The notes beneath the pieces are model-generated. The model saw only the letters and a list, made by a program, of their open reading frames with translations. It ran no database searches and was not told where the DNA came from. This document shows, one piece after another, positions 791-56,730 of a stretch of 64,000 nucleotides of DNA. The translations under genes and the position numbers were made by a program. Each line of letters opens with the position of its first letter. Position 1 is the first letter of the stretch. The stretch is from contig CATQJL010000223.1 of the NCBI GenBank assembly GCA_958299035.1, forward strand, positions 83,024,255 through 83,088,254, read 5' to 3'. This DNA comes from Cylicocyclus nassatus (taxonomy: Eukaryota > Nematoda > Chromadorea > Rhabditida > Strongylidae).

Positions 791-1322
791 AAGCTGTCTT
801 GCATTTTTCTAAAGTTATTGCTTGCCTTTGAAAATGCCACATGTGGACAGTTTTATCTATGACTAGCTGGCTTTCCCGGCTCCGCCAAGCCTTTCAAAAC
901 ACTATGACAAAGATTCCACCACTATTCATGTACAACCTTTCTCTGCGCTCACATCTACATGCCAATTGCCTATTCCCGCTGTGTTAGTAATCAGCATGCT
1001 CGATTATCCCCTGTGCCAAATCCCAGTCCCGTAGCTCAAACTTTGCAAAAAAATCGTAAAATCGATAAAAGCAGCGAATAATTCAACCTAATTTGTATTC
1101 GTAAACAGCATGCTCGACTACCCTCTCCCAACCCCGTGCCAACTCCCAGCCCTATAGCTCAAACTTTGCAAAAAATCGATAAAAATCAATAAAATCGATA
1201 TCGATCAACGACGAAAAGTAGCCTATGACACCTGCCCGGCCCCGAAGTGTATGTGTGCGAAATTTGCTCCGGATCGATTCAGAAATGGAATTTTCTATTC
1301 GAAACATACGTACAGACAGACA

Positions 1323-2977: not shown

Positions 2978-3689
2978 GACAATATGTAACTGGATCATCT
3001 CTTCTCTATTCGGTAGAAAGAAACTCGTTTTTCCAGGCGTCTGCGCGATCGTGTTTCAGCATGTCAGTTGTGAACAGTTGGTCATCACGAGACCGGACAT
3101 GTTTGAGGAGTACGTAGTGCATATGAACATATTTATACAATGTCCTCTTTGCATTTTCATGAAAAACCTTTTCCAGCGTTATATTAGCCACCCTCGTCCC
3201 GGGCCTGAGGCGACTGCCGAGGTGGTCGGCGAGCTACGCTTGCATTGCATATGAATCACAGCGCCAACATCTCCGTATGCCGGACCCCCGGGTGTTCCAT
3301 CCAGGTCTTGGTATAGATGGCTTACGGGGCAAGGGGGATGTCGTTTACGAAAAGCTCAGCCCCCTCCCCTCCTCCCCCACAATCACTTTCCCATCCTCAT
3401 GACGACCTTCGTCTTCTACTAGCTCATTTTCCCGGTCTACGGGGTACTTCAGCTGATGCTTGCTCCAGCCCCCCCCCCCTCCCATCCACCGCGCCTCCCC
3501 TTCCCACCTAGCCATTACGATGCGCTGCAAGGGTCTTCTGTATCAAAGTAACTCACCCGCAGTAGGCTCGCCTTGAATCAACGCATTCTTCCTACCGCGA
3601 AAATCGAATGAACTCTACTGCTATTGTTTACACGAAAATCACGGAAATGACTTGTTGGCAGATGACGAAAACTCATTCTTACGCTAAAA
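2978..3689. other. Unassigned stretch with pyrimidine-rich tract
   Basis: Contains a C/T-rich low-complexity tract at about 3356-3500. An open frame at 2913-3254 (113 codons) crosses the palindrome edge and has no recognisable domain; I do not call it a gene. Nothing else is assignable. Confidence 0.4.
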
Positions 3690-15475: not shown

Positions 15476-16060
15476 ATGGGTGAGAAGACCTAGTCTAGTC
15501 TAATCTTATCTGAGGTGTTTAATTATGTTCTGCGAACGGTTTTTTGTTAGGGCGCAACCCAATACTTAATGTGGATAGAGAGCTAAGATAAACATCATTC
15601 GATACAGCAGCTTCGCGAGTTCCTTAGCAGTTAAAATTGGTGCAAAGTATCATTTGGAGTGAATTTGAAAATGGCTAGCAAAATTTGTTAGAATCAACAT
15701 TTATTCGAAATCTAGCTACCGTCAACCCTACAAAAAGAAGCTAGGTAGCAGACGTGTCTTTTATAATCAAAGTCGGATAACCTTTATGCTCAAATTTTCT
15801 AAGAAAAAGGCGCCATATGTTCTTCTCGATTTTCGATCTTGACCACTGGTTTTGGCTGAAATATTGATGATCTTGAATTGACCAGTACTCCAATCACAGC
15901 ACAGGTGCGATAGTGTGAGAATTTTCTCACCCTCCCTTCACCAAAAGCCGAGAAAAATAATCAACAGTGAGGTAAGGTTAAGCAAAGAAGATATTTGTAC
16001 GTGAATTGTTTATGAAATAGGAAAGGAGGAGTTTGTTGAAAAAAGGGCTTGGTGACGGGT

Positions 16061-16570
16061 GTGAATAATGATCTGGATATTTTCGAGTTTTTAACATAGA
16101 AAAATTCATAACTTCTGTAGTTAAACATCTTGTACGCCTTGATGGTCACCATTAGAACCGTTCCGTCCTCCGCTTTCAGAAAATATTTAGAACGATCAAT
16201 ATCCATTCAAGAAATTGCAGTGAACGGTTTGCCTAGTGATTTTTGAGGATTTTCGGTTTTTTGACATAAAAAAAATTAATAACTTCTGCTGATGAACATA
16301 GTACGCCGCTATAGTCGCCGTTAAAACCGTCTCATCCTTCGCCTTCAGAAAACATATAATATGTTTGGGGTCCGTTGAAAAAAGTGCCTGGGTGAAGGGT
16401 GTCCTATTGATTTTTGGAGATTTTCGAGTTTTTAACCTAAAAAAATTCATAACTTCTGTAGATGAACATCTTATACGCCGAGATGAACACCGTTAGAGGC
16501 GCCTCGTCCTCCGCCTTCAGAAAATATATACTTTGCCAGGAATCGATTAGAAAAAGTGCCGGGTGAAGGG
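16061..16570. repeat. Tandem 170-bp repeat, three units
   Basis: The offset of exactly 170 bases between matching blocks (16061, 16231, 16401) defines three diverged units. Each holds GATTTTTGGAGATTTTCGAG, then CATAACTTCTG and TCCTCCGCCTTCAGAAAA. Two related units occur at about 7690-8030, ending in the same TTTATAA-GGGAG-GCTCAAGTA sequence. It looks like a dispersed minisatellite or the core of a repeat-rich element. Confidence 0.75.
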
Positions 16571-17639
16571 TGGGTGAGACCTTTATAATGGGAGTGCTCA
16601 AGTACAGGCTTTACCAAAGTTTTACCAAAGTGCTCAAGTAGACGTAAAAAGACGTCTACTTGAGCACTCTATACACTCTATACACTCTTGAGCACTATAT
16701 ACTCGTAAATATCCAGAAATTACTACCCACGCTCTCCACCAGACACTTTTTGAATAGACTCCAGGCAAGCTATATATTCTCTGAAAGCGGAAGACAAGAG
16801 TTGTAAAAACCTTTTCATTGCTGACGTTGCTGTTCATCTACAGAAGTTACGAATTTATTCTTTTAAAAAAATTCGTAAATGCTTAAAAATTGTCTAACTC
16901 TTCCGAAACAGATGTTCTCGCATACACATCTTCTAGGGTATTTTTAAAAACATATAGGGTTGTTCCAATTCTATCAGTTTTCACATTTTGGTAAAAAGAC
17001 AACCAATGATGGCAGAGAATTTAATATGATAAACTTTTATTTGGAAAATAAGAAAACACCATCTCCTTCTCCCCTCCTCCCCCCCCCCCGGTCGGCATTT
17101 TATGATTTCTCGATCAACTGAAACACCCTTCACCCTGGAGGGACTGCGAACACTGTGACCCCCTTCACCCTGGAAGAGTCATTCTCACCTTATCGCACCT
17201 GTGATTCACAGTAATTTTCAAACCGACTGTCAACGAAAATCCTGGTCATTTCGCGAAAGAGTTTTACAGTGAAATTTCAAATAGAAAAAAAATTTGGGCA
17301 AACCCGCAAGGCTGAAGTTTGTTTGCACTTCTCGTCTTCTCTACCAAAAAACTTGCTTGCGTATTTTTGTAAATTAGAATCTCTGTAAAGAACGCCATCA
17401 GGTCGTGATTAGCACAGGCCCCTATGTGCACTGTTCATCAAATTATGAGGTTACAAACGCACGTGCTCATGAATTTTCTCCCACGTTTGAGAGTCGCGTA
17501 TTTTAGGGATTCTCATCTCTATAATTTGCCACCAGCAGCAAAACAATGTAAGAAATGTTGTCAGCACATTGAGTGTCTATTTGAGCGGAAATTTGAGAAA
17601 ATTGCATCATGCAGTCAAACAGTTACGACTTCAGAATGT
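16571..17639. other. Unassigned stretch
   Basis: Includes a short inverted repeat around AGACGTAAAAAGACGTCT near 16631-16652, repeated TATACACTC units at 16668-16690, and a C-rich run near 17080. No reliable gene or element boundaries. Confidence 0.4.
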
Positions 17640-20199: not shown

Positions 20200-20953
20200 T
20201 TTTTTTTATTATATTTACCTTTTCAATTATAAAATATATCATTGTAACCGGGGGTGTCTAGTGGTATAACGGTTTTAACCGGATTGATAGACTACACGGA
20301 TTGAACGACTAATAGTTTATCTTAGGAAAAGGCAACTAACAACAACAAACAAGAACGTGTATCTTGAACAAGGCGTAACAACGAAACGAGGGCTTTACCC
20401 TCTTTGACCACTTCGGCAGGTTTACTGTATACTCTCTATCTAAGGGGGAGATCCGCCTCTCTTCGATGGCTTTAGCTCCCGCTAGCGCTTCCTCAGCGCA
20501 GTCTGAGGCCTCCCCCTGACTCCCGGTATTTATACCCTGCCGAAGGGGTCAGCGCGGGCTTTTCTTTCCGCCACTGAAGATCGGTAGGTCGGTGATCCGC
20601 GCCCTCTGACATCATTAGCTGTTACAAATTAACTCAACCATTAATTTACAATATTAATAACATTAAACATAAACTAATGATATCAATATTATTGAATAAT
20701 TTTATAATTATATTCATACAAAAAATGCTATATCTAAATTAAAGTTATTTTGTCTGAATATCATAATCAAAATTTATTTATCAAATATATTTATTTATTG
20801 ACAACTTATTTACAAATAATCGAAATCAAAACAGGTAAGCTTATTTTTTTATATTGTAAGATTTTGTTTTATTGCAGATACCTTACAAATTCTTTGATGA
20901 GAGGGCCATATCTCTTGTTCTATAAAAATAGGAGGACATGATGGGTGAAACCA
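20200..20953. other. AT-rich flank of the Penelope-like element
   Basis: Begins with a moderately GC-rich stretch to about 20610 that includes a TATTTATACCC sequence, then becomes strongly AT-rich to 20940. The AT-rich part matches the composition of the retroelement downstream and may be its 5' region. No ORF. The foldback at 20954-21531 separates it from the coding remnants. Confidence 0.4.
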
Positions 20954-21531: not shown

Positions 21532-21844
21532 CAGTGGGGATGTGGGGACATGGGGGGATACACCCCCTCCCCCCTGCGACTCCATGGGTCCCGTTTATTC
21601 ATTTGTAAACCAAAGTTTCAAAAACTCACTAAACCCGAACAGGGTCGGTCATGAACCCCCTGGCAGCAGCCATGCCAAATCATTATCTCCCGCACTTCCT
21701 AAGGTAAAGACCTGCCGACTAGGAAGTTATTCAAGTGGTCTCGAAAAACTACGTCTTGCAATGCTGATGATTATTATAAACAATCACAATTTCGTAAAAG
21801 GTTAACAAAATGTACACATTAAACAATTTTGGTAACGATGACAT

Positions 21845-22556
21845 CAAAACTGCATGTCGTTCAAAATGCGTCATTTGTAGACAAATGAATCACAATCCAT
21901 ATATATCGTAGGTAATTCAACAAAATTAAAAATATACACATTTTGCACAAATAACAGCAATTGCAAAAATAACAATGTCATCTATTTCATCACATGTAAT
22001 GCAATAAACAATATGTAGGTTTAACGACTAGAAATCTGAAAAGCAGGATAAGAGAACGCTTTTATCATTCTAAAAAGAATGATATAAGTAACTTTCTATA
22101 TGATCTCTTCAAAACATGCACAAATAGAAGTATGACGGTTCAAATACTAGATAGTTTGGAAAAGAATAAAGACAAGAATGTCTTGGTAAGTAAAGAACTA
22201 TTCTGGATCAAATTACTCAACACAGCATATCCTTTTGGATTGAATGACAATATTAAAGGATATGGAAATATATTCAATATTGTTAACCCTCTTTTACAAA
22301 AAGAAACACATCCTTACTATAATTTAAAAATAACAAAAGACAGGATACGTGGCCAATACAGAGATGAAAAAAAATAAAGAAACACTAGATTAATTCTTAA
22401 AAACTATTAATAGTAAGAGCTCACTACAGGATTTATTTCAATATATCCATTCATTGAAAAAAAGTTTTATAAAACAAGTAATTGCAGATGTTTTGATCCT
22501 AAATTTCTAATGAAAATTGAACAAAATATAAAAATAACTACTCTTAGGGCCGCATG
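21845..22556 (+). pseudogene. Penelope-like element: GIY-YIG endonuclease remnant
   Basis: In shifting frames this gives the parts of a PLE-type GIY-YIG nuclease in order: zinc-binding CRSKCVICRQM (21855-21890), then NCKNNNVIYFITC (the GIY-like strand, about 21960-22000), YVGLTTRNLKSRIRERF (the YIG strand and catalytic arginine region, about 22014-22065) and, from 22132, SKELFWIKLLNTAYPFGLND with the conserved Glu and the (Y)PFGLN signature of these nucleases. At least two frameshifts and a stop separate the pieces. The domain lies upstream of the reverse transcriptase on the same strand, the permuted order described for Naiad/Chlamys-type PLEs. The tail (NCRCFDPKFLMKIEQNIKI) runs into the insertion at 22557. 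Confidence 0.75.
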
Positions 22557-23254
22557 CACTAACATCCCCGCGGGGAGGGGATCGCAGCTCAAAAGAATGC
22601 TTTATGTTTCGAAACTCCAGATACCTGGATTTCACCTTGTGTACTTATCCGTAAGTGTTCCTACTACCCTTCACTATGAACATGCTGAAGAGGAGCGGAA
22701 GCTGTACGAACCGCATTTTCCAGCTTTTGTATGATCCCTGATGATCCCCGGCGCTTTTCTTCGAAGTCATTTTTTTTTCTCCGAAGTTAACGAAAAACCT
22801 CCAAAGTGGTGCAGATTATCCAACTCGGCAGTGCTAAGCATGTTCGTGATAAGAACAAATGATGTTTTGAAGTCGTGAGATTTCCGATGATCCACAGGTC
22901 GAAATTTGAGCTTTACCGAAAAATTCGACTTTTCAAAAACTCATTTGTTCTCATCAGCAACATGCTTGGCACTGTTGTGTTAGATGTTCAGTACAGCTTT
23001 GGAAAATTTTCGAAAGTTTGGAGAAAGAAAAATGACTTTAAAGAAAAGCGCCGGGGATCATCAGGGATCATACAAAAGCTGGAAAATGCGGTTCGTACAG
23101 CTTCTCGCTTCTTCAACATGTTCAAAGTGAAGTGTAGTAGGAATACTTACGGATAGGTACACAACGTGAAATCCAGGTATCTTGAGTTTCGAAATATAAA
23201 ACTTTCTTTTAAGCTGCGACCCCTTCCCAGCGGGGAGGTTAGTGCATGCAGCCC
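22557..23254. mobile_element. Palindromic MITE with TTA duplication
   Basis: 698 bp; ends GGGCCGCATGCACTAAC and the complement of GTTAGTGCATGCAGCCC, flanked by TTA at 22554-22556 and 23255-23257. Long arms pair throughout (GATCCCCGGCGCTTTTCTT with its complement). PIF/Harbinger-like by duplication length. It interrupts the Penelope-like element. Confidence 0.85.
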
Positions 23255-23367
23255 TTAGTATACTTTGCAAATTTATGTTCAATGGTAACAAAAAAGAAAA
23301 GGAAAATATTAGTTATAACAATATCAAAGTTGAATATATCCATAATATACTAGACGAAATCAATCTA
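23255..23367 (+). pseudogene. Penelope-like element: linker fragment
   Basis: Between two inserted elements this AT-rich piece reads KKEKENISYNNIKVEYIHNI then LDEIN, with lysine/asparagine-rich composition like the rest of the element. Together with 24264-24311 and 25334-25620 it would form the region between endonuclease and reverse transcriptase. Confidence 0.6.
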
Positions 23368-24311: not shown

Positions 24312-25333
24312 TTAGGTCGTTCCGAAAGTAATGTCGCTTTTTTCAAACGTACACCACACCTCGTGGAACAAAGATATCTAAGAGATTCTGGTAGCATGTG
24401 ATGCAGCATTTCATTCTCTTTCTGATGGTTACATAATCACTGCACAGAATCCAATAACCTCTCGAAAAATTATCAAAATTTGCGACCCATGCCTTTTGAG
24501 AAGGCCAAGTTTCAATATTTTTCTAAGTTTTTATAACAACCCTCGGAAGGAGTCCAAGTAATGGACGGATAGAGCAAACCCTACAGGAAACAACACAACT
24601 TTTTTCTACTTTCCAGAGCTTGTCATAATTTTTGTAGGGATTTTTTGATAAAACCACCGAATTTTAGCAGACTCGTCTCAGACACAAATGCATCAAACAC
24701 CAGTAAATCTTCGGATTTTGAAACTTACAAAGATGGTTTATGGTTTAACACTAATTTTACAAAGCAAATAAGCGTTTACCGCTTCATATTAGCAACTTTC
24801 GAAAATTCCGGGTACAGCCTGGGGCGCCCTGGAAAACCTGAATTATGATGGTTTTATCCCGGAAAACTTGATGAATCGGAAACAAAAAACAGCTGGTAGA
24901 AAGAGGAGAAAAAGCTGCGTTAAATGACATCCGAGCTGCTTGCCGATTGTTGTTCCGTGAGATTTGAGTTGACCAAATATGGAATTTGATGACATTGAAA
25001 AATTGGTTCCAGAAAGTAAAAGAAGCAAGCTAAGAAAAAGAAAAGAATTAATTGTGTTCTACAGGGTTTGCTCTATCTATCTGCCACTTGCACTTCTTCG
25101 GAGAATAAGTACAAAAATGTAGAAAAATAGCCGAACTTGACCATGGCAAAAAGCATGAGTAGCAGGTTTTGGTAATTTCTCGAGGGCTCATTGAAGATTA
25201 TGCAATAAAATTACGACCATTAGAAAGAGAATGAAATGCTGTATCGAATGCTCCTAAGATCTCTCGAAAATCTTAATCCCGTGAATTGTGGCGTTCATTT
25301 GAAAAAAGCGACATTACTTTCGGAACGACCTAA
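24312..25333. mobile_element. Mariner-type MITE, family A, copy 3
   Basis: Ends TTAGGTCGTTCCGAAAGTAA and complement, TA flanks at 24310-24311 and 25334-25335. Subterminal ATAGAGCAAACCCTACAGG near 24570 and its complement near 25062 match copy 2 almost base for base. Confidence 0.85.
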
Positions 25334-25876
25334 TAGTAAGATCAATTACAATCCATGCAGACTTGTACATAAATACAAAAATCCAATTTCTATGCAAATT
25401 TTCAATTACAATTCCATTCTTGCTAAACTTGATACGAACGAAAATCAAATTCTTGCTCAAAAATGTAAGCTTAGAGAATCAGAAATGACACATATATTGA
25501 TAACCAGAAATAATTAAAGGCAAACACTTAGAATCCGTAATGAACGAAGGTACTAAATACAGAATACCTAACAACACCAGTAAAAAGAAATAATAGATTG
25601 GATCCATTCAACAGTTCAACTCATTATGAATACTTACATCAAAAAATACAAACTTAAACTTGGAGAACCTAAAAACATAAAAACTTTTCTTCTGAAAAAA
25701 ATTAAACTTAGATTCAAACCACTTCTCTATAAAGCCAGACTAAAAAACAAACAATACCCAAACGAACAAAATTACAATTTTGAATGTAATTACATTAAAA
25801 ACCTCAAAAATCAATTTGTAATTTGCCCATCTAATAAAGCAAGTTATAACTTCGGTATTATCTGTAAAAAATTCTA
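25334..25876 (+). pseudogene. Penelope-like element: N-terminal reverse transcriptase region
   Basis: Reads INYNPCRLVHKYKNPISMQ and FNYNSILAKLDTNENQILAQ, then after a stop the open frame from 25626 gives KIKLRFKPLLYKARLKNKQ and NQFVICPSNKASYNFGIICK ending KKFYH. The last part matches the PLE signature in which a hydrophobic IxPADK-like motif is followed by an NxxxVCKxYY-like motif. The reading is cut by the insertion at 25877 and resumes at 26796. Confidence 0.75.
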
Positions 25877-26795: not shown

Positions 26796-28026
26796 AAACA
26801 TACAAACAATAATGAAAGAATTAGGGATCACATTTGATAAGAAAAACCAAGTTTTAAATGAAAATGAAACATATAATTTATATGAAGAAGAAAGTGCTAA
26901 TGATATAACAAAAAGACATATTGACTTTTGCAAAAATAACAAGTTACCACTGCAAAATATTAACAACATACCATTTATATACTGTGTACCAAAACTCCAT
27001 AAAAACCCTATTAAACTCAGATTTATTACGGAGCTACACACAGCAACATTAAATTCCTTGCCCTGGAATTACGATGTATATTTCAGCACATAAAAATACA
27101 TCTTAAAAACTGTACAAAATTATACTCTTACAAACGATTAAATATAAGAAACAAACTTCATATAATTATTGATAGAGACAATATTAATATCAGTGATAGA
27201 CTATCCAATATCAACATAAACGACATGCAATTATACTCAGCTGATTTTACAAATATGTTCACTAGCCTACCACATAACATAATAAAACCAACCTCAAGGA
27301 ACTTCTCAAATTATGCTTCAAAAATGCAAACAAAAAATATCTGACATATAATGGCTTCAATAAAATATACTACACCGTTAATATAAACACAAAATCTAGC
27401 ACAGAAACTACACCATTTCAGATTTATTGTATTATATTGATTATATTCTTGATAACAGTTTTTGCAGATTTAGCACGTACATTTTTAAACAAAGAGTAGG
27501 GGTGCCATAAGGCGGTAATTTTAGTCCATTGTTAGCAGACCTGGCACTATCTTGATATGAAAATACAAGTATATAGTTGATGAAGTCAATAACAATAAAC
27601 AACTTTTTGCTTTTCGTTATATGGATAATCTATTAATCATACACAACCGCACTGAACCTACAATTCATAATATAATCAAAAACGTATATGATAACAAACT
27701 AAATTTGGAAACTACTCATATAGATAATTTACATTGCAATTATTTGGACTTACATACTACAATTATTAATAACAGAATCATAACTAAAACGTATAACAAA
27801 ACTGATAGTTCCCTTTTCAAGTAAAAAGATTTATACACATCACTTCTGGTGTATCTAATCACATCAAAAACGCAATTGTTTACACAGAAACTTTAAGAGT
27901 TGCCCGTACTTACACTTATCTTGACGATTTTGTCAAAAAATACTACAGTTACGAAACTTACTTATTTCCAATGGATACAATGAAATATGATTTATTCAAA
28001 TATTTTCAAATGCTTACATAAAAATA
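26796..28026 (+). pseudogene. Penelope-like element: reverse transcriptase core and thumb, decayed
   Basis: From 26812 one frame gives NNIPFIYCVPKLHKNPIKLR and FITE (the PLE PKxHKxP..RFI motif). Further pieces need frame changes: LYSADFTNMFTSLPHNII (motif A with its Asp), QRVGVP then GGNFSPLLADLALS (motif B) and FRYMDNLLIIHN at 27611-27650 (motif C). Motif C has Asp-Asn where PLE enzymes carry Asp-Asp. Then NYLDLHTTIINNRIITKTYN and the thumb-like ETLRVARTYTYLDDFVKKYY. Several stops and frameshifts show it is dead. The C-terminal end is followed by the MITE at 28027, and no second nuclease domain appears downstream. Confidence 0.8.
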
Positions 28027-29047: not shown

Positions 29048-29747
29048 CCAATGCGTCACCTCTGCTTCGCAGAGGTTCGCACTGGCTCTACTATCTATGT
29101 GCCTTACTCATTCTCGTAAAATCGTGGCACTGGAACTCACCGCGCTATGCCGACTACCACGAATAAAATGTAAACAACTACTCATTTAGAAAGTCTTTTC
29201 ACGTGAAATCGGTGATTTCGCGTGGATGAAACTTTTCACAGGAAGACAGACGCAAATTTGAATAGGTTTTGGATTTGTCATGACTTGGTAGTCGCCATAA
29301 AGGTAATGATAACCGTGAGCTACATCTCTGTGCGAAAATCTTCTCAAACGCTTAGCTAGAACCTTGGAAAATTGACCATTTACACAACCAATTCGTTTTG
29401 GCGCCGTTTTCGTTACGTAGAAAACTTTCGACCACTTTTCTGGCTAAGCTCCATCGCTTGCACATTTCCTTACCAAACTCATCCATGACTCTGCAAAAAG
29501 TGGTGATACGGACCGAATTTTGCGGTACAGAGGACAGGTGGACCCGTTCGGCGCGCAATTTCTGAGGGATCCACTCAACGAATCTACTCATGCTTTTGCA
29601 TGTTGGACTTTCACGAAGGTAGCATGCGCTATACAAAATTTGGGCTTAGAACGCTGGCTGGAACACTCTCCACGAATTTCGTAACAGACACACAAACACA
29701 CACACAAAGTCACGTAAACATTCTTAGCCCGTTATTATAAGTCATGA
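29048..29747 (-). mobile_element. Helitron-like element, family 3, copy 1
   Basis: On the minus strand it starts TCATGACTTATAATAACGGG after an A and ends with the hairpin CCTCTGCGAAGCAGAGG, then TGACGCATTGG before a T. The interior has a GTGTGTGT tract and the block GTTACGAAATTCGTGGAGAG. Same family as 30941, 32155 and 40574. No ORF. Confidence 0.75.
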
Positions 29748-29787
29748 TAAATACAAATTTTACAATTACGATAAAATTAAAAAATTA

Positions 29788-30653
29788 TTAGGTTGGCACG
29801 GAAGTTCTTGCGTAATTCAAACAAAATTCAATAACTTTTCGAAGACTAAACCTAAATTCATAACCGTGTATGCTGAAAATACTAGAAGTCTCACGCTCCA
29901 GGAAGGAAGTTCAAGCACAACATGTCATGAACTAGCCATCTAGAACGAAGCTCTCAAATATGGGGCTTCAAATTTTCGGATTTTGAGTTTGGTGGCAGAA
30001 AATCGCAGAAGGCAGCTGGCTAGCCGAAAAAAATCTGTAGAATTCACTTACATAGCAAAAGCCCATACGTAATTTTAGCAGGCTTTGATCTCACATGGAA
30101 ACGCGAAAACAAAAAATTTGTGAAAATTCTCATTTCACAGGACAAATCCCCTTATCGCTCTAATATTTCCACAGAAACACAGTTTGCAACCAGAAATTAG
30201 ACATAGTGCCTACTTAAAACCTTGGGACGTTTTTTCGATTGTAAAAAAGTGTTTTCGCTGGAAAACTGCGGACATGGGGGGATTTTTTTCGCAAAATAAC
30301 ATATTTCACGAATTTTTTGTTTTTGTTTCACCGTGCAAGAACAAAGCCTTTCAAAGTAACATATGGACTTGTGTTGTGTAAGTAAATTCTACAGATTTTT
30401 TTCGAGATTTTTTTCGGCTAGCTAGCGGCACTCTGCGATTTTCTGGCCCCAAACTCAAAATCGCAAAATTTGAAGCCCCATATTCGAGAGCTTCGTTCTT
30501 GATGTCCAGTTCACGGAATCTTATGCTTAAACATCCATCATGAAGCGTAAGGCTTCTAATATTTTTAGCATGCAAGATTGTGAATTTAGGTTTAGGCTTT
30601 GAAAAGTTATTGAATTTCGTTTGAATTACGCAAGAACTTTCGTGCCAACTCAA
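29788..30653. mobile_element. Mariner-type MITE, family D, copy 1
   Basis: Ends TTAGGTTGGCACGGAAGTTC and its complement (GAACTTTCGTGCCAACTCAA), with TA on both sides; inner CTTGCGTAATTCAAAC pairs across. A second copy is at 62519-63146. Confidence 0.85.
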
Positions 30654-30940
30654 TATTACACATTCTACATAAAAACACAAGTTATAGTTAATTGATGTGA
30701 TATATGTCGTATACTAGTCTTCAATTAAACTATTTCATACGATCCTAATCAATAGCACATATCATTAATCAGTATAGTTATTTCGATACACATCTACTAC
30801 AAACAACCAATTTAGTAAAGTAGTCTATCAAAATGACCAATATCATAATAAATAAAATCAACTACAAAAACACTAACATGTTTCATTTTCTTTAGTCTAC
30901 CAATATGGTCACTACTATAGTTTATAGTATATGATCAATA

Positions 30941-32132
<1,192 letters not shown>

Positions 32133-32154: not shown

Positions 32155-32828
32155 TCATGACTTATAATAAAGCGCTAAGCGTCTGTCTTTTTGTGCGTGT
32201 GTGTGTCTGTATGTCTGTCTGTCACGAAATTCATGGAGGAAGCTGCAGCCAAGCTATCGAGCTCCAATTTTGCATAACATACCGCACTAGCATGTAAGTC
32301 CACTATGCACAAGGACAGTCGGTTCGATGAACGGGCCCATAAAAATTGGCGCGTCAAACGGGTCCAAGCGGCTTTTGGCAGGCGAAACTAAGTCGCTAAT
32401 TCGACTTTTTGCAAAGTCATGATTTGCCTGACACGTAAATCTGCGTGCCATGAATTCCAGCCCAAAAGATGTTCAAAAAGTCTGTTCATCTGCGAAAACA
32501 GCGCCAAAAAATGGTAATCGCGTACATAGTCGATTTGGCAAGGTTTTACCTCGAAATTTTGAAAGGATTTTTGCACGGAAATGAACTCAAAGTGACTATT
32601 ATCCTTATAACGACTACCAAGCCAAAACAAATTCAGTAATCCATTCAAATTCGCATTTTTCCCTCGGCAAAAAAGTTTTTTCTTAAAATTACCCTTACAT
32701 GGAGATGCTTCAAAAATGAACAGTTGTTTAGGATTCATTTGTGATGTTCAGCATCACGTGGTGAGTTTCAAAGTCATCATTATGCGAACATGAGGAAGGC
32801 ATACGGAAGGAGCCAGTGCGTCACCTCT
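32155..32828 (+). mobile_element. Helitron-like element, family 3, copy 3, 3'-truncated
   Basis: Starts TCATGACTTATAATAAAGCG after an A, 22 bases downstream of copy 2. It follows the family through GTCACGAAATTCATGGAGG and GCCAGTGCGTCACCTCT, then stops inside the terminal hairpin. Past this point the sequence is unrelated. Confidence 0.7.
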
Positions 32829-32888
32829 CAACTATTTCAACAACATTCAAATTTTATCTAAAACTATTTTGAAATATACAGGACTCAT

Positions 32889-32969
32889 GAACTCTCCTTC
32901 CTTACTGATGAGTTCCGGGGAGAGTTCTGAGCTCTTTTACTCCGTCTAAGGACAGGAACGAAACGGAGT
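32889..32969 (+). ncRNA. Hammerhead ribozyme core in a non-standard strand order
   Basis: All conserved hammerhead parts are present. Strand a: stem I TCCTTA (32899-32904), core CTGATGA (32905-32911), stem II GTTCC (32912-32916). Strand c: stem III ACTCCGT (32939-32945), cleavage-site C (32946), stem I TAAGGA (32947-32952). Strand b: stem II GGAAC (32955-32959), core GAA (32960-32962), stem III ACGGAGT (32963-32969). Stems I, II and III are perfect (6, 5 and 7 bp). The order a-c-b is not type I, II or III. A further 9-bp stem (32889-32897 with 32919-32927) closes strand a into a hairpin, so stems I and II would form between two hairpin loops. It lies downstream of the Penelope-like element once insertions are removed; PLEs are known to carry hammerheads. 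Catalysis is inferred, not shown. Confidence 0.7.
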
Positions 32970-33037
32970 TAGATTAGTTCACTGCAAAATTGATTCCCAT
33001 GTTAAACAACTTATGGCACCACATCTTGTAAATAACT

Positions 33038-33066
33038 ATCTCTATTTCTATTTCTATTTCTATTAA
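33038..33066. repeat. (CTATTT)n short tandem repeat
   Basis: Four to five CTATTT units, about 70 bases after the hammerhead-like sequence. It could be a retroelement tail repeat, but this is a guess. Confidence 0.7.
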
Positions 33067-46862: not shown

Positions 46863-49800
46863 TATATAGATATTTACTTACTTACTTAGATACTTAGATA
46901 GCCCATCCTCACGTGATGTGCGGACACCAGTACAGAAGTTGCCATTGATCCCTGTCTCTCGCTTCGGACATCCACGATCTTCTTGGTTGTCGTCGGTGGC
47001 TGCGTCCACGAGTTCCAGGTGCAAAAATCGTATCCAACTGATTTCAGCTGGTCCATCCGTTCCACGAACACGCCTGCCCATCTTGTTGGAGGTCTTCCTT
47101 GGGGACGTTTCTCTTCGCGAGGAATCAACTCAGATGTTCTTAGTGTTCATCTCATCTGTTCTTCTCATGATGTGACCGGCTCATCGATGTTTCGCTTTCA
47201 CAACATATTCCGCTGAGTCACGAAGACGGAACATTCTTCTCAAATCCGTACTGTGATGAAGTCCGACAAGATGCCGTTTGTGTCGGTCATTTTTAAACAA
47301 CTGCGCTCTAGCGCTCTGTGAGTGGTCCGTAGAGCTTTCGGCGTGGCTACAGTCTCTGCCCAAGTCTCAGCTGCGTAACAGAGCATTGAGAGGACGATGA
47401 GTCGAACAGGTGGGCACGAAGCTTTGGATCGTCAGTTGGTCGGTGTCCTTCAGAGCCCGAAGGCGGCCCAGACTGCTATTCTTCTCCTGTTAAGTTCTTT
47501 CCTCAGGTCCTTCTCCAAATTCATCGAACGTCCGAGATACACGTAAGAAGACGTCTCCGTGATAGGGGTGCCTCCCAATTCTATTTCTGCATCTTCGCAA
47601 ACGGCGTTCTTCATGAGAATCTTCCTCCGATTTATTCGCAGTCCGATCTTCTTCCCTACTTTGTTTAGTTCCTTCATCATCTTCTCTGTTTCAAGGATAC
47701 TGCTCGAGAAGAGAACGATGTCGTTCGCAAAACAAAGGTTCGACAGGAATCTCCCATCAACTCGTATGTCTCTCTCGTCCCAGTTTAGTGACTTCATTAC
47801 CCACTGCAAGGCCGCGGTGAACAGCTTCGGCAAAATAGTGTCGCCTTGTCGAACCCCCTTCCCAATTGGAATGGTTAGGGGGCGATGGAATAGCTGCATC
47901 GTTGTTGTACAGTCCTTGTAGCAGTCGGCTAGTGTCCTCACGTAAGCTGATTCCACTCCTTGATCGACTAGCGCTGACAGAATGACGTTGGTTTGGACGC
48001 TGTCAAAGGCTTTCTCGTAGTCGACAAAGGTTAGGACGAGAGGCAGTCGGTAATCCTGGCAGACTTCTATAACCCTCGAAACCGTCTGGATGTGTTCCAT
48101 GCAGTTGAATCCTTTGCGAAATTCAGCTTGTTCTTGGGATTGGGCTTCATCCAGTGTCCTAGATATGCGAGCGAGGATAATCTTCGTGAAAAGTTTATAA
48201 ATAAATAAATAGATAAAGTAAATAAATAAAAGTTTATACAGCACACTAGGCAGGCATATTGGACGGTAGTTTCGAAGATCTTCCCGTTCACCCTTCTTGA
48301 AAAGAAGGACGGTCTTGATGTTCTCCACTGGTCGGGAATCCTTTCCTTCTGAAGGTAAGATGTTAGGTGCGACGCGAGAATCTCGTGTAGACGTTGTCCT
48401 CCAGCTCGCAGAAATTTGACGCAAGGATGGTCTGGTCCTGGAGCCGTGGACGTCTTCATGGCTTGATTCGCCGTGCGCACTTCAGCAGGTAGAATTCGTG
48501 GTGGTACCTCTCCAGTGGGAACAACGGTCATCGGCACGGGTCTTGATGAGCGGAAGAGGTTGGTATAGAAGTTCTTCGCGATAGATTCCATCTTGTATCG
48601 GGAAGAAGTCGGAGTCCCGTCTTCGTTCAATAGTGCAGCCAGCGGTACGTGATATTCGCAGAGGTCCCTTCGGCACTTCTTGAAACTTCGTTTTTCTTCG
48701 GCTGCTTCCAGTATATTGGCTTGTCTATACCTCCTAAGATCCTCGCGCAAAGGTGTTCTGCAACTGGCAATAGCTATCCAGTCGCTCGAGACAGGTATTC
48801 GAATCTATCCTCAGAAATCTTCTTCTTTCCAGCAATTTTTGGTGATCTTCAAAATTCGTTCCAAGTCCTTCTCAGAAGCCACAAAGGCGCACTTTCCGCG
48901 GCTTGCAATCCTTTAAGCCGGTCGTAGTTGTACGTTGGGTCCCTTCGATAAGCCAGTCACAACTTGATATAATCTTCTTCAGCCCCTTCTTGCGGCACCA
49001 TGGCAAGCCTTCTTTTGCAGCTTTCTAAATCGTATCTTCGCTCGAAGAGTGGTGATTAGAGCCACGCAGAAGGATGCAATTATGAGACATCGAGCAAGCT
49101 CCATCTTCGGTTTGTGAGAATATGGTCGACCTCGCTTGAGTCTTTCCGTTGCGCGGTTCCCTGTCCATTTGCGATTCTTTCTTCATGAAGATGGAACTCC
49201 CATGGAAGGGTCGTGCGACGAAGAGAAGCTCAATGAGACGGTTGCCGTTTTCACTCCGGAGCCCATATGCGAACTTCCCAATCCTTTTCTTTTCTAAGGG
49301 CATCCCGATTTTTGCGTTAAAGTCGCCCACAACAAATGTGAAAAGGAATTCTCGTTGCGGATGACCTCCTCCACGTCATTGTAGAAGACATCTAGTTTTG
49401 AGTCGTCAGCTGCTGATGTTAATGAGGAGCAGTTCATGATGCTGATGGTCTTCTGACGTAGAGGTCGTAATTGTGGGATGGCTAGTCGACTTGATAGAAT
49501 CTTATGCGAATCAACAAGATGAACGATAGATGGGTGGACGACAAAACCAACACCTCCTACGTTTTGTGAACCTTCTCACCACAAATGGTGAGTGTCCCAT
49601 CAGTCATATGTCGCACGTCCTTTTTTCTGGACTTCGTTTCCTGCACAGCGATGATGTGGTACTTGATGTGCTCTGCAGCGTCGAAAAGAGCGTGGAGGTC
49701 GGCGTTTGTGGATACTGTCCCGGCGTTGTAGGTGTTATCGTCCTAGCAGAACGTGTCGTTTTTGTTCAGTCAAAAAGACGCTCTGAGGACCTGACATCGT

Positions 49801-55981: not shown

Positions 55982-56730
55982 CTCAGACACTGAGACCGGC
56001 CGAGCCGCGGCCCATTTCCGGCTGGAATTTCGCAGCGTCCGCGGACCAGCCGGTGAAGGTCCGCGGACCAGCCGGTGAAGGTCCGCGGCTCAGCCGGAAA
56101 ACGGCCTCGGCTCAGCCGGAGCTGGTTGTCGGGCCATATAGTTCATTCTAGCTCGGATACAAAACGACTGTTTTTTTATTCACTGGCGCGTATATACACG
56201 CTGTGAAAAACAAAAATTGAAGTCGCAGACATGGCCGCTTCGGAAACCATGTCCGGCTTCAAAATTGGACAACACAAAGTGCTATCCAGGTGTTGTACAA
56301 CACATTGGTCTTGTTCCTGCCTTGGAGACTGGAAAGACATGGAAGGCTATGGACACTGAGGGCAGCCTGACCATGCGTCGTACATCACGCAAGTGTTCTT
56401 TACGCTCAGATACTAGGACCGGCCGAGCCGAAAATGGGCCGCGGCTCAGCCGGTGTTTCGTTATAGAGATTTTGGTCCGCGGCTCAGCCGGTGCAATCAT
56501 ATCGACATGAATTGAGGTCCGCGGCTGGGCCGGTCTTCGGCCACGCCCCCAAATTAAGGCCGCGGCTGGGCCGGTAAGCCATATTCAGTCCGCGGCTCAG
56601 CCGGTGCAATCATATCGACATGAATTAAGGTCCGCGGCTGGGCCGGTCTTCGGCCACGCCCCCAAATTAAGGCCGCGGACGGGCCGGAAAGGCCTTTTGA
56701 GGCCGCGGCTCAGCCGTCCCAGTGTCTGAG
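55982..56730. mobile_element. CTCAGAYA-family foldback element (copy 5, CGGCTCAGCCGG type)
   Basis: Ends CTCAGACACTGAGACCGGCC and CTCAGACACTGGGACGGCTG (complement), TA duplicated at 55980-55981 and 56731-56732. The interior is packed with GGTCCGCGGCTCAGCCGG, GGCCGCGGCTGGGCCGG and similar short palindromic units, including a 60-bp block repeated at about 56480-56550 and 56605-56670. A second internal end CTCAGATACTAGGACCGGCC lies at 56405. Confidence 0.8.

Follow-up and report, generated by a model that had tools for sequence, protein, structure and literature searches.

A type-CSG hammerhead motif in Penelope-like retroelements with an N-terminal GIY-YIG endonuclease

A 64,000-nt stretch of the genome of the strongylid nematode Cylicocyclus nassatus (hereafter the window) carries, at positions 32889-32969, all the parts of a hammerhead ribozyme in an order that classical hammerheads do not have. 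This locus raises the question of whether the motif is a genuine hammerhead and, if so, to what kind of element it belongs.

Anatomy and strand order of the motif

The window was searched with a descriptor that combined stems I-III with CUGAnGA, GAAA and the cleavage site and allowed any block order. A single site in the whole window scored at least 28, namely the 32889-32969 motif, with a score of 46. Its blocks stand in the order C-S-G, that is, the CUGAnGA block, the cleavage-site block and the GAAA block. The parts are as follows.

32889..32969, + strand: type-CSG (non-circularly permuted) hammerhead ribozyme, entire motif (descriptor, alignment, model search)
32889..32898, + strand: 5' arm of the P4 helix, GAACTCTCCT, adjoining stem I with no spacer (structure alignment)
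32899..32904, + strand: 5' strand of stem I, TCCTTA, block C (sequence, structure alignment)
32905..32911, + strand: catalytic core CUGAUGA (CTGATGA), block C (sequence; CUGAnGA retained in 34/39 BLAST-found copies)
32912..32916, + strand: 5' strand of stem II, GTTCC, block C (sequence, structure alignment)
32918..32927, + strand: 3' arm of P4, GGGAGAGTTC, separated from stem II by a single G at 32917 (structure alignment)
32939..32945, + strand: 5' strand of stem III, ACTCCGT, block S (sequence, structure alignment)
32946, + strand: predicted cleavage-site nucleotide, the C of GUC, with the cut after the C (analogy with hammerheads and the validated type-CSG; CGTC retained in 37/39 BLAST-found copies)
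32947..32952, + strand: 3' strand of stem I, TAAGGA, block S (sequence, structure alignment)
32953..32954, + strand: 2-nt CA linker joining stems I and II; the linker has 2-3 nt in the remaining listed CSG motifs (structure alignment)
32955..32959, + strand: 3' strand of stem II, GGAAC, block G (sequence, structure alignment)
32960..32962, + strand: core GAA, block G (sequence; CGAAAC retained in 39/39 BLAST-found copies)
32963..32969, + strand: 3' strand of stem III, ACGGAGT, block G (sequence, structure alignment)

Stems I (6 bp), II (5 bp) and III (7 bp) consist entirely of Watson-Crick pairs. P4 encloses block C and links the outer ends of stems I and II, which is a feature of type CSG; it has 10 bp, made up of nine Watson-Crick pairs and one U.G. 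The first-pass annotation had listed CTGATGA, GAA, the cleavage-site C and stems I, II and III, and every one of these parts was present in the sequence at its assigned position. The extra 9-bp stem it had drawn around the CUGAnGA strand was also found, as P4. The nested minimum-energy fold of a single strand yielded two hairpins, one formed by P4 and one by stem III. Two adjacent hairpins with pairing loops, and the strand order a-c-b, had likewise been proposed, and compensatory changes in other copies (see below) strongly support both.

Chance was assessed against order-1 Markov sequence modelled on six other loci, which gave no CSG-order match of at least 34 in 153 Mb strand-bases. When P4 was added to the score, no control match reached at least 52 in 209 Mb, compared with 69 for the window motif. 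With no match near the window score in these controls, a chance origin was ruled out; the earlier judgement that chance formation is very unlikely was thus borne out, as neither Markov nor shuffled controls gave a comparable score.

An Rfam search of the window returned no match to the motif at gathering score. The best weak match was to Hammerhead_3 (15.7 bits, cut-off 48.5), and it covered blocks C and G while skipping the remainder. The motif has neither the circular order of classical hammerhead types I, II and III nor a score at the Rfam gathering level. Across the whole genome, Rfam Hammerhead_1 gave no matches (73 scored of 67,697 candidates), and positives were found in 0/14 control genomes too, which makes this negative uninformative. 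Such ribozymes are probably under-counted in eukaryotic genomes, because the Rfam cut-offs did not flag this motif. In IMG/VR, scans found no relatives and the exact core pattern had no matches; a tblastn search of plasmid sequences also gave none.

The first-pass annotation had described the strand order as unprecedented, but this order is already known as type CSG. In its accessible text, the paper by Eckert, Friedrich, Weinberg and Weinberg (2023, NAR; PMC10085705) defines blocks C, G and S and describes all six of their orders. Type CSG is represented there by two similar sequences, known from metagenomic DNA only. Both are reported to cleave slowly in vitro (0.004 and 0.026 per min) where expected, and to cut during transcription, and the set is described as having 'modest covariation'. 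The same text already describes the helix that holds stems I and II together and states that the hammerhead fold sets these stems side by side. It further gives 583 predicted sequences of type SGC, which was first found in metatranscriptome contigs with hairpin ribozymes. Our literature search, largely of openly accessible papers, showed no further report on type CSG and nothing about Penelope-like elements with permuted hammerheads; the terms 'non-circular permutation' and 'hammerhead' occur together in two papers on structure alignment. Of the earlier interpretation, the hammerhead itself, the a-c-b order and the loop-paired hairpins held, 'unprecedented' did not, and the Penelope-like host described below had been missed.

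The retroelement that carries the motif

We searched the 515-Mb assembly that contains the window (contigs up to 108 Mb) with a 106-nt query. This gave 40 scored matches, from 629 candidates, at 94-100% identity, some of them partial. The motif is therefore a repeat, and the possibility that it is unique to the 32889-32969 locus was ruled out.

Twenty loci, each taken with ~7-8 kb of upstream flank, were then compared. The copies share a common 3' end, a (CTATTT)n tail at ~33065 in the window, and are truncated to variable extents at the 5' end. Longer copies encode a single ORF. In locus L014, this ORF spans 963 aa, with a GIY-YIG domain (PF01541) at residues 92-176 followed by a reverse transcriptase domain (RVT_1, PF00078) at 656-816. 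A CxC motif lies between the endonuclease and the reverse transcriptase, and its cysteines C381 and C383 were invariant in all 15 aligned proteins.

Tandem arrangement was directly visible at locus L016, which reads ribozyme, ORF, ribozyme, with the two ribozymes 5186 bp apart and the flanking copies 99.8% identical. A tail-to-head junction at the same position was found in 5 of the 37 loci listed (L011, L015, L016, L021 and L022), many of the remainder being too short to reveal one. Pseudo-LTRs, tandem or partial tandem copies and 5' truncation were all present in the element. Target-site duplications were sought in the flanks of 15 copies and none was clear; at L040, 10 nt are in common, at an uncertain 3' end. 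By its domain order, CxC motif and tandem structure, as read from the sequences, the element is a Naiad-like Penelope-like element with an N-terminal GIY-YIG endonuclease. The endonuclease-first arrangement is what we take to be the Naiad/Chlamys type. Penelope-like elements of the N-terminal-endonuclease group have a CxC motif before the reverse transcriptase and an insertion bias for microsatellites. Naiad and Chlamys, which belong to this group, are reportedly without canonical hammerhead motifs.

In the window itself, the element copy is split by insertions into pieces between 20623 and 33065.

20623..20953, + strand: 5' piece of the broken element copy (locus comparison)
21532..22547, + strand: piece of the broken copy, GIY-YIG endonuclease region (ORFs, locus comparison)
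23254..23367, + strand: piece of the broken copy (locus comparison)
25332..25876, + strand: piece of the broken copy (locus comparison)
26798..28026, + strand: piece of the broken copy, matching the reverse transcriptase part of L014 (locus comparison)
29747..29790, + strand: piece of the broken copy (locus comparison)
30654..30955, + strand: piece of the broken copy (locus comparison)
32828..33065, + strand: 3'-terminal piece of the Penelope-like element copy, containing the ribozyme (locus comparison)
33036..33064, + strand: (CTATTT)n tail, the shared 3' end of family copies (repeat scan, locus comparison)

At 20202-20243 there is one more match to L016, 42 nt long. A separate small element was ruled out, since the motif is colinear with the Penelope-like element, whose remaining pieces are found on the motif's 5' side within the window. 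As an element, this copy is almost surely dead, and it is probably a broken fossil that does nothing for the host.

Several other features were recorded. The region around the window ribozyme is duplicated (L001/L002), with 98-98.6% identity over 3 kb, ~110 kb away on the same contig. An uninterrupted (GT)252 array of 504 bp occupies 30975-31478, between two pieces of the broken copy. Elsewhere in the window, there are GC-rich tandem units containing the word GTCCGCGGCTCAGCCGGTG at 56037-56716, a ~172-bp tandem repeat in three diverged copies at 16039-16572, and, on the minus strand at 47450-48804, broken open frames that by eye resemble the reverse transcriptase of a non-LTR retrotransposon. 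In L002, L034, L035 and L040, other GC-rich hairpin-like words flank element copies on the 5' side.

Distribution and covariation across element families

Searching the genome at the protein level, with 47 of 4293 candidates scored, gave a list of 53 matches. From these, we took 20 3' flanks, selected for a spread of 47-90% protein identity without regard to their RNA. A CSG hammerhead was found on the sense strand in all 20, with strict scores of 37-50, and one flank (L068) has two. Other block orders gave weaker readings among the top hits listed for these flanks, mostly around the same core. Strict scores were 31 for SCG (L050, L055) and 23.5 for SGC (L069); relaxed scores were 33 (L063) and 30 (L066) for CGS, 32 for SCG (L050, L055), 31 for GCS (L059, L062) and 25 for GSC (L069). 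As no classical order exceeded 33 among these top hits, compared with 37-50 for CSG, a classical hammerhead was ruled out. Nine loci with close copies had no strict descriptor match, as expected of old copies. Loci L003-L008, which duplicate later, longer loci, were omitted from the listings.

A tree of 20 relatives, rooted at the midpoint, placed CSG ribozymes on both sides of the root, with weak support for the deep fork (57/84). Furthermore, a protein family with 33% identity, encountered by chance within locus L027, is followed ~1 kb after its ORF by a CSG ribozyme whose stems are entirely different, and a motif related to it is present in L032. One subfamily (L029-L032, L051 and L069) shares the same ribozyme, with CUGAGGA and an AA linker, and has a different 3' end, a TTTTCTTTTA-type tail directly behind stem III. 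At L022, positions 1142-1220 (+), an inverted second ribozyme-like stretch lies beside the main one (R1 model, 40.3 bits), so element copies may occur inverted as well as in tandem.

Six further relatives, with 29-34% protein identity, came from prokaryote assemblies and are probably eukaryotic contamination. Two of the six have a CSG hammerhead with the same architecture and different stems. In L044, the motif lies 5' of the ORF (covariance-model E 7.5e-9; descriptor plus P4, 59.5). In L045, it lies 3' of the ORF (E 3.1e-7; descriptor plus P4, 69); the first descriptor missed it because of one extra base between CUGAnGA and stem II. A third, L047, from an assembly labelled Halanaerobiales, has an SGC-order form at 3342-3400 (+), behind an ORF at 286-2955. 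Its score was 46.5, and 0.0003 matches of at least 44 are expected by chance in the six loci; its stem II has 3 bp, and G.U pairs are frequent in its P4. From its sequence, this form is probably an SGC-order hammerhead, which suggests that the two hairpins can exchange order. The remaining relatives, L046 (whose sequence ends 369 nt behind the ORF match), L048 (which matches part of the protein only) and L049 (more than 1 kb on each side), gave no credible CSG or SGC match; L048 had a 6-bit partial match (E 4.1).

Covariation was assessed in 24 of 34 unique sequences over 26 pairs, leaving out seven close rows and three sequences misaligned by MAFFT (L044, L027b and L032b). Pairing was intact in 98.4% of cells. 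Two-sided change occurred at 10 pairs and in 42 cells, compared with shuffle means of 4.6 and 10.5, and none of 500 shuffles reached the observed values. When the structure was slid along the alignment, 36-56% of cells were paired and 1-3 pairs showed two-sided change. The number of further pair types was not exceptional (21 against a shuffle mean of 19.0, reached by 66 of 500 shuffles). By helix, two-sided changes were seen at 4 of 8 pairs in P4, 2 of 6 in stem I, 2 of 5 in stem II and 2 of 7 in stem III. The stem variants illustrate this: TCCTTA/TAAGGA, TCACTA/TAGTGA and GAACTA/TAGTTC in stem I; GTTCC/GGAAC, GTCCC/GGGAC and GATCC/GGATC in stem II; ACTCCGT/ACGGAGT, TATCCGT/ACGGATA and TTTCCGT/ACGGAAA in stem III. 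Other genomic copies that keep the stems through compensatory changes, for which the first-pass annotation had proposed a search, were thus found for all four helices.

Any copy found with the descriptor has the core and paired stems I-III because the search required them, and invariance of the core within the aligned set is by construction, so it was not counted as evidence. A second survey was therefore given a less biased basis: a 19-nt block-C pattern, blind to blocks S and G, had 497 exact matches in the genome and none for the reversed control. We took 20 of these sites, approximately every fourth of ~100 listed on one contig, two being already known loci. A strict CSG hammerhead was present at 14, and the other six had, by eye, decayed S or G blocks. 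Downstream, CGAAA was found at 18 of the 20 sites, and an S-block word also at 18. P4 pairing held in 142 of 160 cells, compared with 57-107 for slid structures; the pattern fixes one of the eight 3' bases. Stems I and II were 6 and 5 bp long in 44 of 55 hits, many of which are close copies.

Proposed action and relation to known systems

By its anatomy and covariation, the motif is a type-CSG hammerhead, and its RNA is very likely self-cutting, judging from the sequence. By analogy, the cut is predicted after C32946 and most likely in cis. We assign a probability of about 0.88 to the reading that the motif is the type-CSG hammerhead ribozyme of N-terminal GIY-YIG Penelope-like elements and would most likely cut their tandem transcripts to unit length. 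Anatomy, association with the element and compensatory change were observed; cleavage, action in cis and a role in the element cycle are what they lead us to expect.

In the proposed fold, the first hairpin would consist of the 10-bp P4 and a loop bearing the 5' strand of stem I, CUGAUGA and the 5' strand of stem II. The second would consist of stem III and a loop bearing the cleavage site, the 3' strand of stem I, the 2-nt link and the 3' strand of stem II. Pairing of the two loops would create stems I and II and close the core, with P4 and the 2-nt link keeping the two stems side by side, and the RNA would be cut after C32946. Given the fixed P4 spacing and the 2-3-nt link, stems I and II would span two three-way junctions, one at the catalytic core and the other at the P4 end. 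Since the hammerhead fold sets these stems side by side, P4 and the short link would take the place of the loop-loop contacts of classical forms.

The ribozyme follows the ORF and precedes the 3' tail, so that in tandem copies one also stands upstream of the ORF. Cuts at the upstream and downstream ribozymes of a tandem transcript would release a unit of ~5.2 kb, in which the tail would be 119 nt from the 5' end. Reverse transcription of the whole unit from this internal tail would need an uncut tandem or a circle, and an RNA circle would also account for the 5'-truncated tandem copies with an exact tail-to-head junction. In a canonical Penelope element, according to the accessible text of PMC11167929, the tail within the RNA is where reverse transcription begins; retrozymes provide known examples of circular RNAs made by ribozymes, as stated in the available part of PMC7229834. 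A role in the element cycle is not assured, because in the purified canonical Penelope system the classical hammerhead needs protein and is dispensable for insertion in vitro (PMC11167929, same text).

The two hairpins might instead belong to two RNA copies, the P4 loop of one being paired to the other's stem III loop; a dimer or neighbouring units of a tandem transcript would then be required for cleavage. Both hairpins form independently in the minimum-energy fold, and small hammerhead variants of Penelope-like elements cleave as dimers, according to the title of Lunse et al. 2017. However, P4 adjoins stem I without a spacer and stem II after 1 nt in 24 of 26 distinct motifs, and stems I and II are joined by 2-3 nt; a closed cis fold would be expected to have such constant spacing. 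Moreover, cleavage of the published type-CSG ribozymes takes place during transcription according to the accessible text of PMC10085705. We regard the two-copy arrangement as unlikely and prefer action in cis.

A second alternative is a conserved structure for protein binding or for the start of reverse transcription, in which catalysis was lost or never present and the resemblance to a hammerhead is a relic. The motif lies ~100 nt from the tail, the point at which Penelope-like reverse transcription starts inside the RNA (PMC11167929, accessible text). A mere binding site need not keep a catalytic core, yet the whole core is kept in all 20 diverged flanks and in L044, L045 and L027 while the stems co-change. 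Among 39 BLAST-found sites, CUGAnGA is retained in 34, CGAAAC in 39 and CGTC in 37; the loss of CUGAnGA in the other five is as expected of old copies. In 33 gapless BLAST-found copies, which are the best-scoring and thus favour similarity, differences from the majority averaged 0.33 copies per core position, 0.40 per stem position and 1.1 elsewhere. Since the aligned set was built in a way that fixes its core, we gave this alternative slightly more weight than at first, and it remains quite improbable. That a lucky arrangement was simply copied by the retroelement, its fold free of selection, fits the scarce variation of the stems within the closest copies, but this has a negligible chance of being right given the between-family compensatory changes in all four helices, by which it is mostly refuted, the recurrence of this architecture in L027, L044 and L045 with stems of unrelated sequence, and the lack of a comparable match in shuffles.

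With the type-CSG hammerhead retained as the preferred reading, what is new here is the host: a CSG hammerhead is a regular part of a Penelope-like element family in a eukaryotic genome, while the strand order was known already. It is probably the 'missing' ribozyme of N-terminal-endonuclease Penelope elements, which are said to be without canonical hammerheads, and offers a likely answer to why one Penelope clade, by such accounts, seemed to be without them. Permutation affects both the protein and the hammerhead of this retroelement clade, the latter in 20 of 20 flanks in this genome and in some relatives elsewhere, and non-circular RNA permutation thereby gains a biological home. Type CSG, formerly two sequences, can now be assigned to a host and to a position within an element, and it covaries across families. 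The folding of a scrambled-order ribozyme and the interconversion of SGC and CSG forms can be tested on many natural sequences.

More tentatively, and with the odds somewhat against it, CSG, or SGC by hairpin swap, could be the general self-cleaving ribozyme of the entire N-terminal-endonuclease Penelope clade, replacing the classical type I of other Penelope elements. The published metagenomic type-CSG sequences would then be pieces of such elements. The cut unit RNA would be circularised, and reverse transcription from the internal tail, possibly for more than one round, would produce the 5'-truncated tandem copies.

Among known systems, Naiad and Chlamys resemble the elements described here in their N-terminal GIY-YIG domain, CxC before the reverse transcriptase and pseudo-LTR tandem structure; they are said to have no canonical hammerhead, whereas the elements here carry a non-canonical one. 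The minimal type I hammerheads of Penelope-like elements (Cervera and de la Pena 2014, as cited in the accessible parts of PMC7229834 and PMC11167929) are similar in that a hammerhead lies in a pseudo-LTR of tandem copies, but they have the classical strand order, and the element in PMC11167929 has a C-terminal endonuclease. Type SGC, as described in the accessible text of PMC10085705, consists of the same two hairpins in reversed order; L047, a relative of the element, has a probable SGC form, whereas the window motif is in CSG order. Type CSG, as described there, agrees with the window motif in the C-S-G order, the core nucleotides, the double pseudoknot, the helix between stems I and II and the predicted cut position, a comparison made by description and not by sequence. 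The published type is represented by two similar metagenomic sequences, for which that text gives no host or element; the window motif, in contrast, comes from a eukaryotic assembly with hundreds of copies, a retroelement host and many covarying families.
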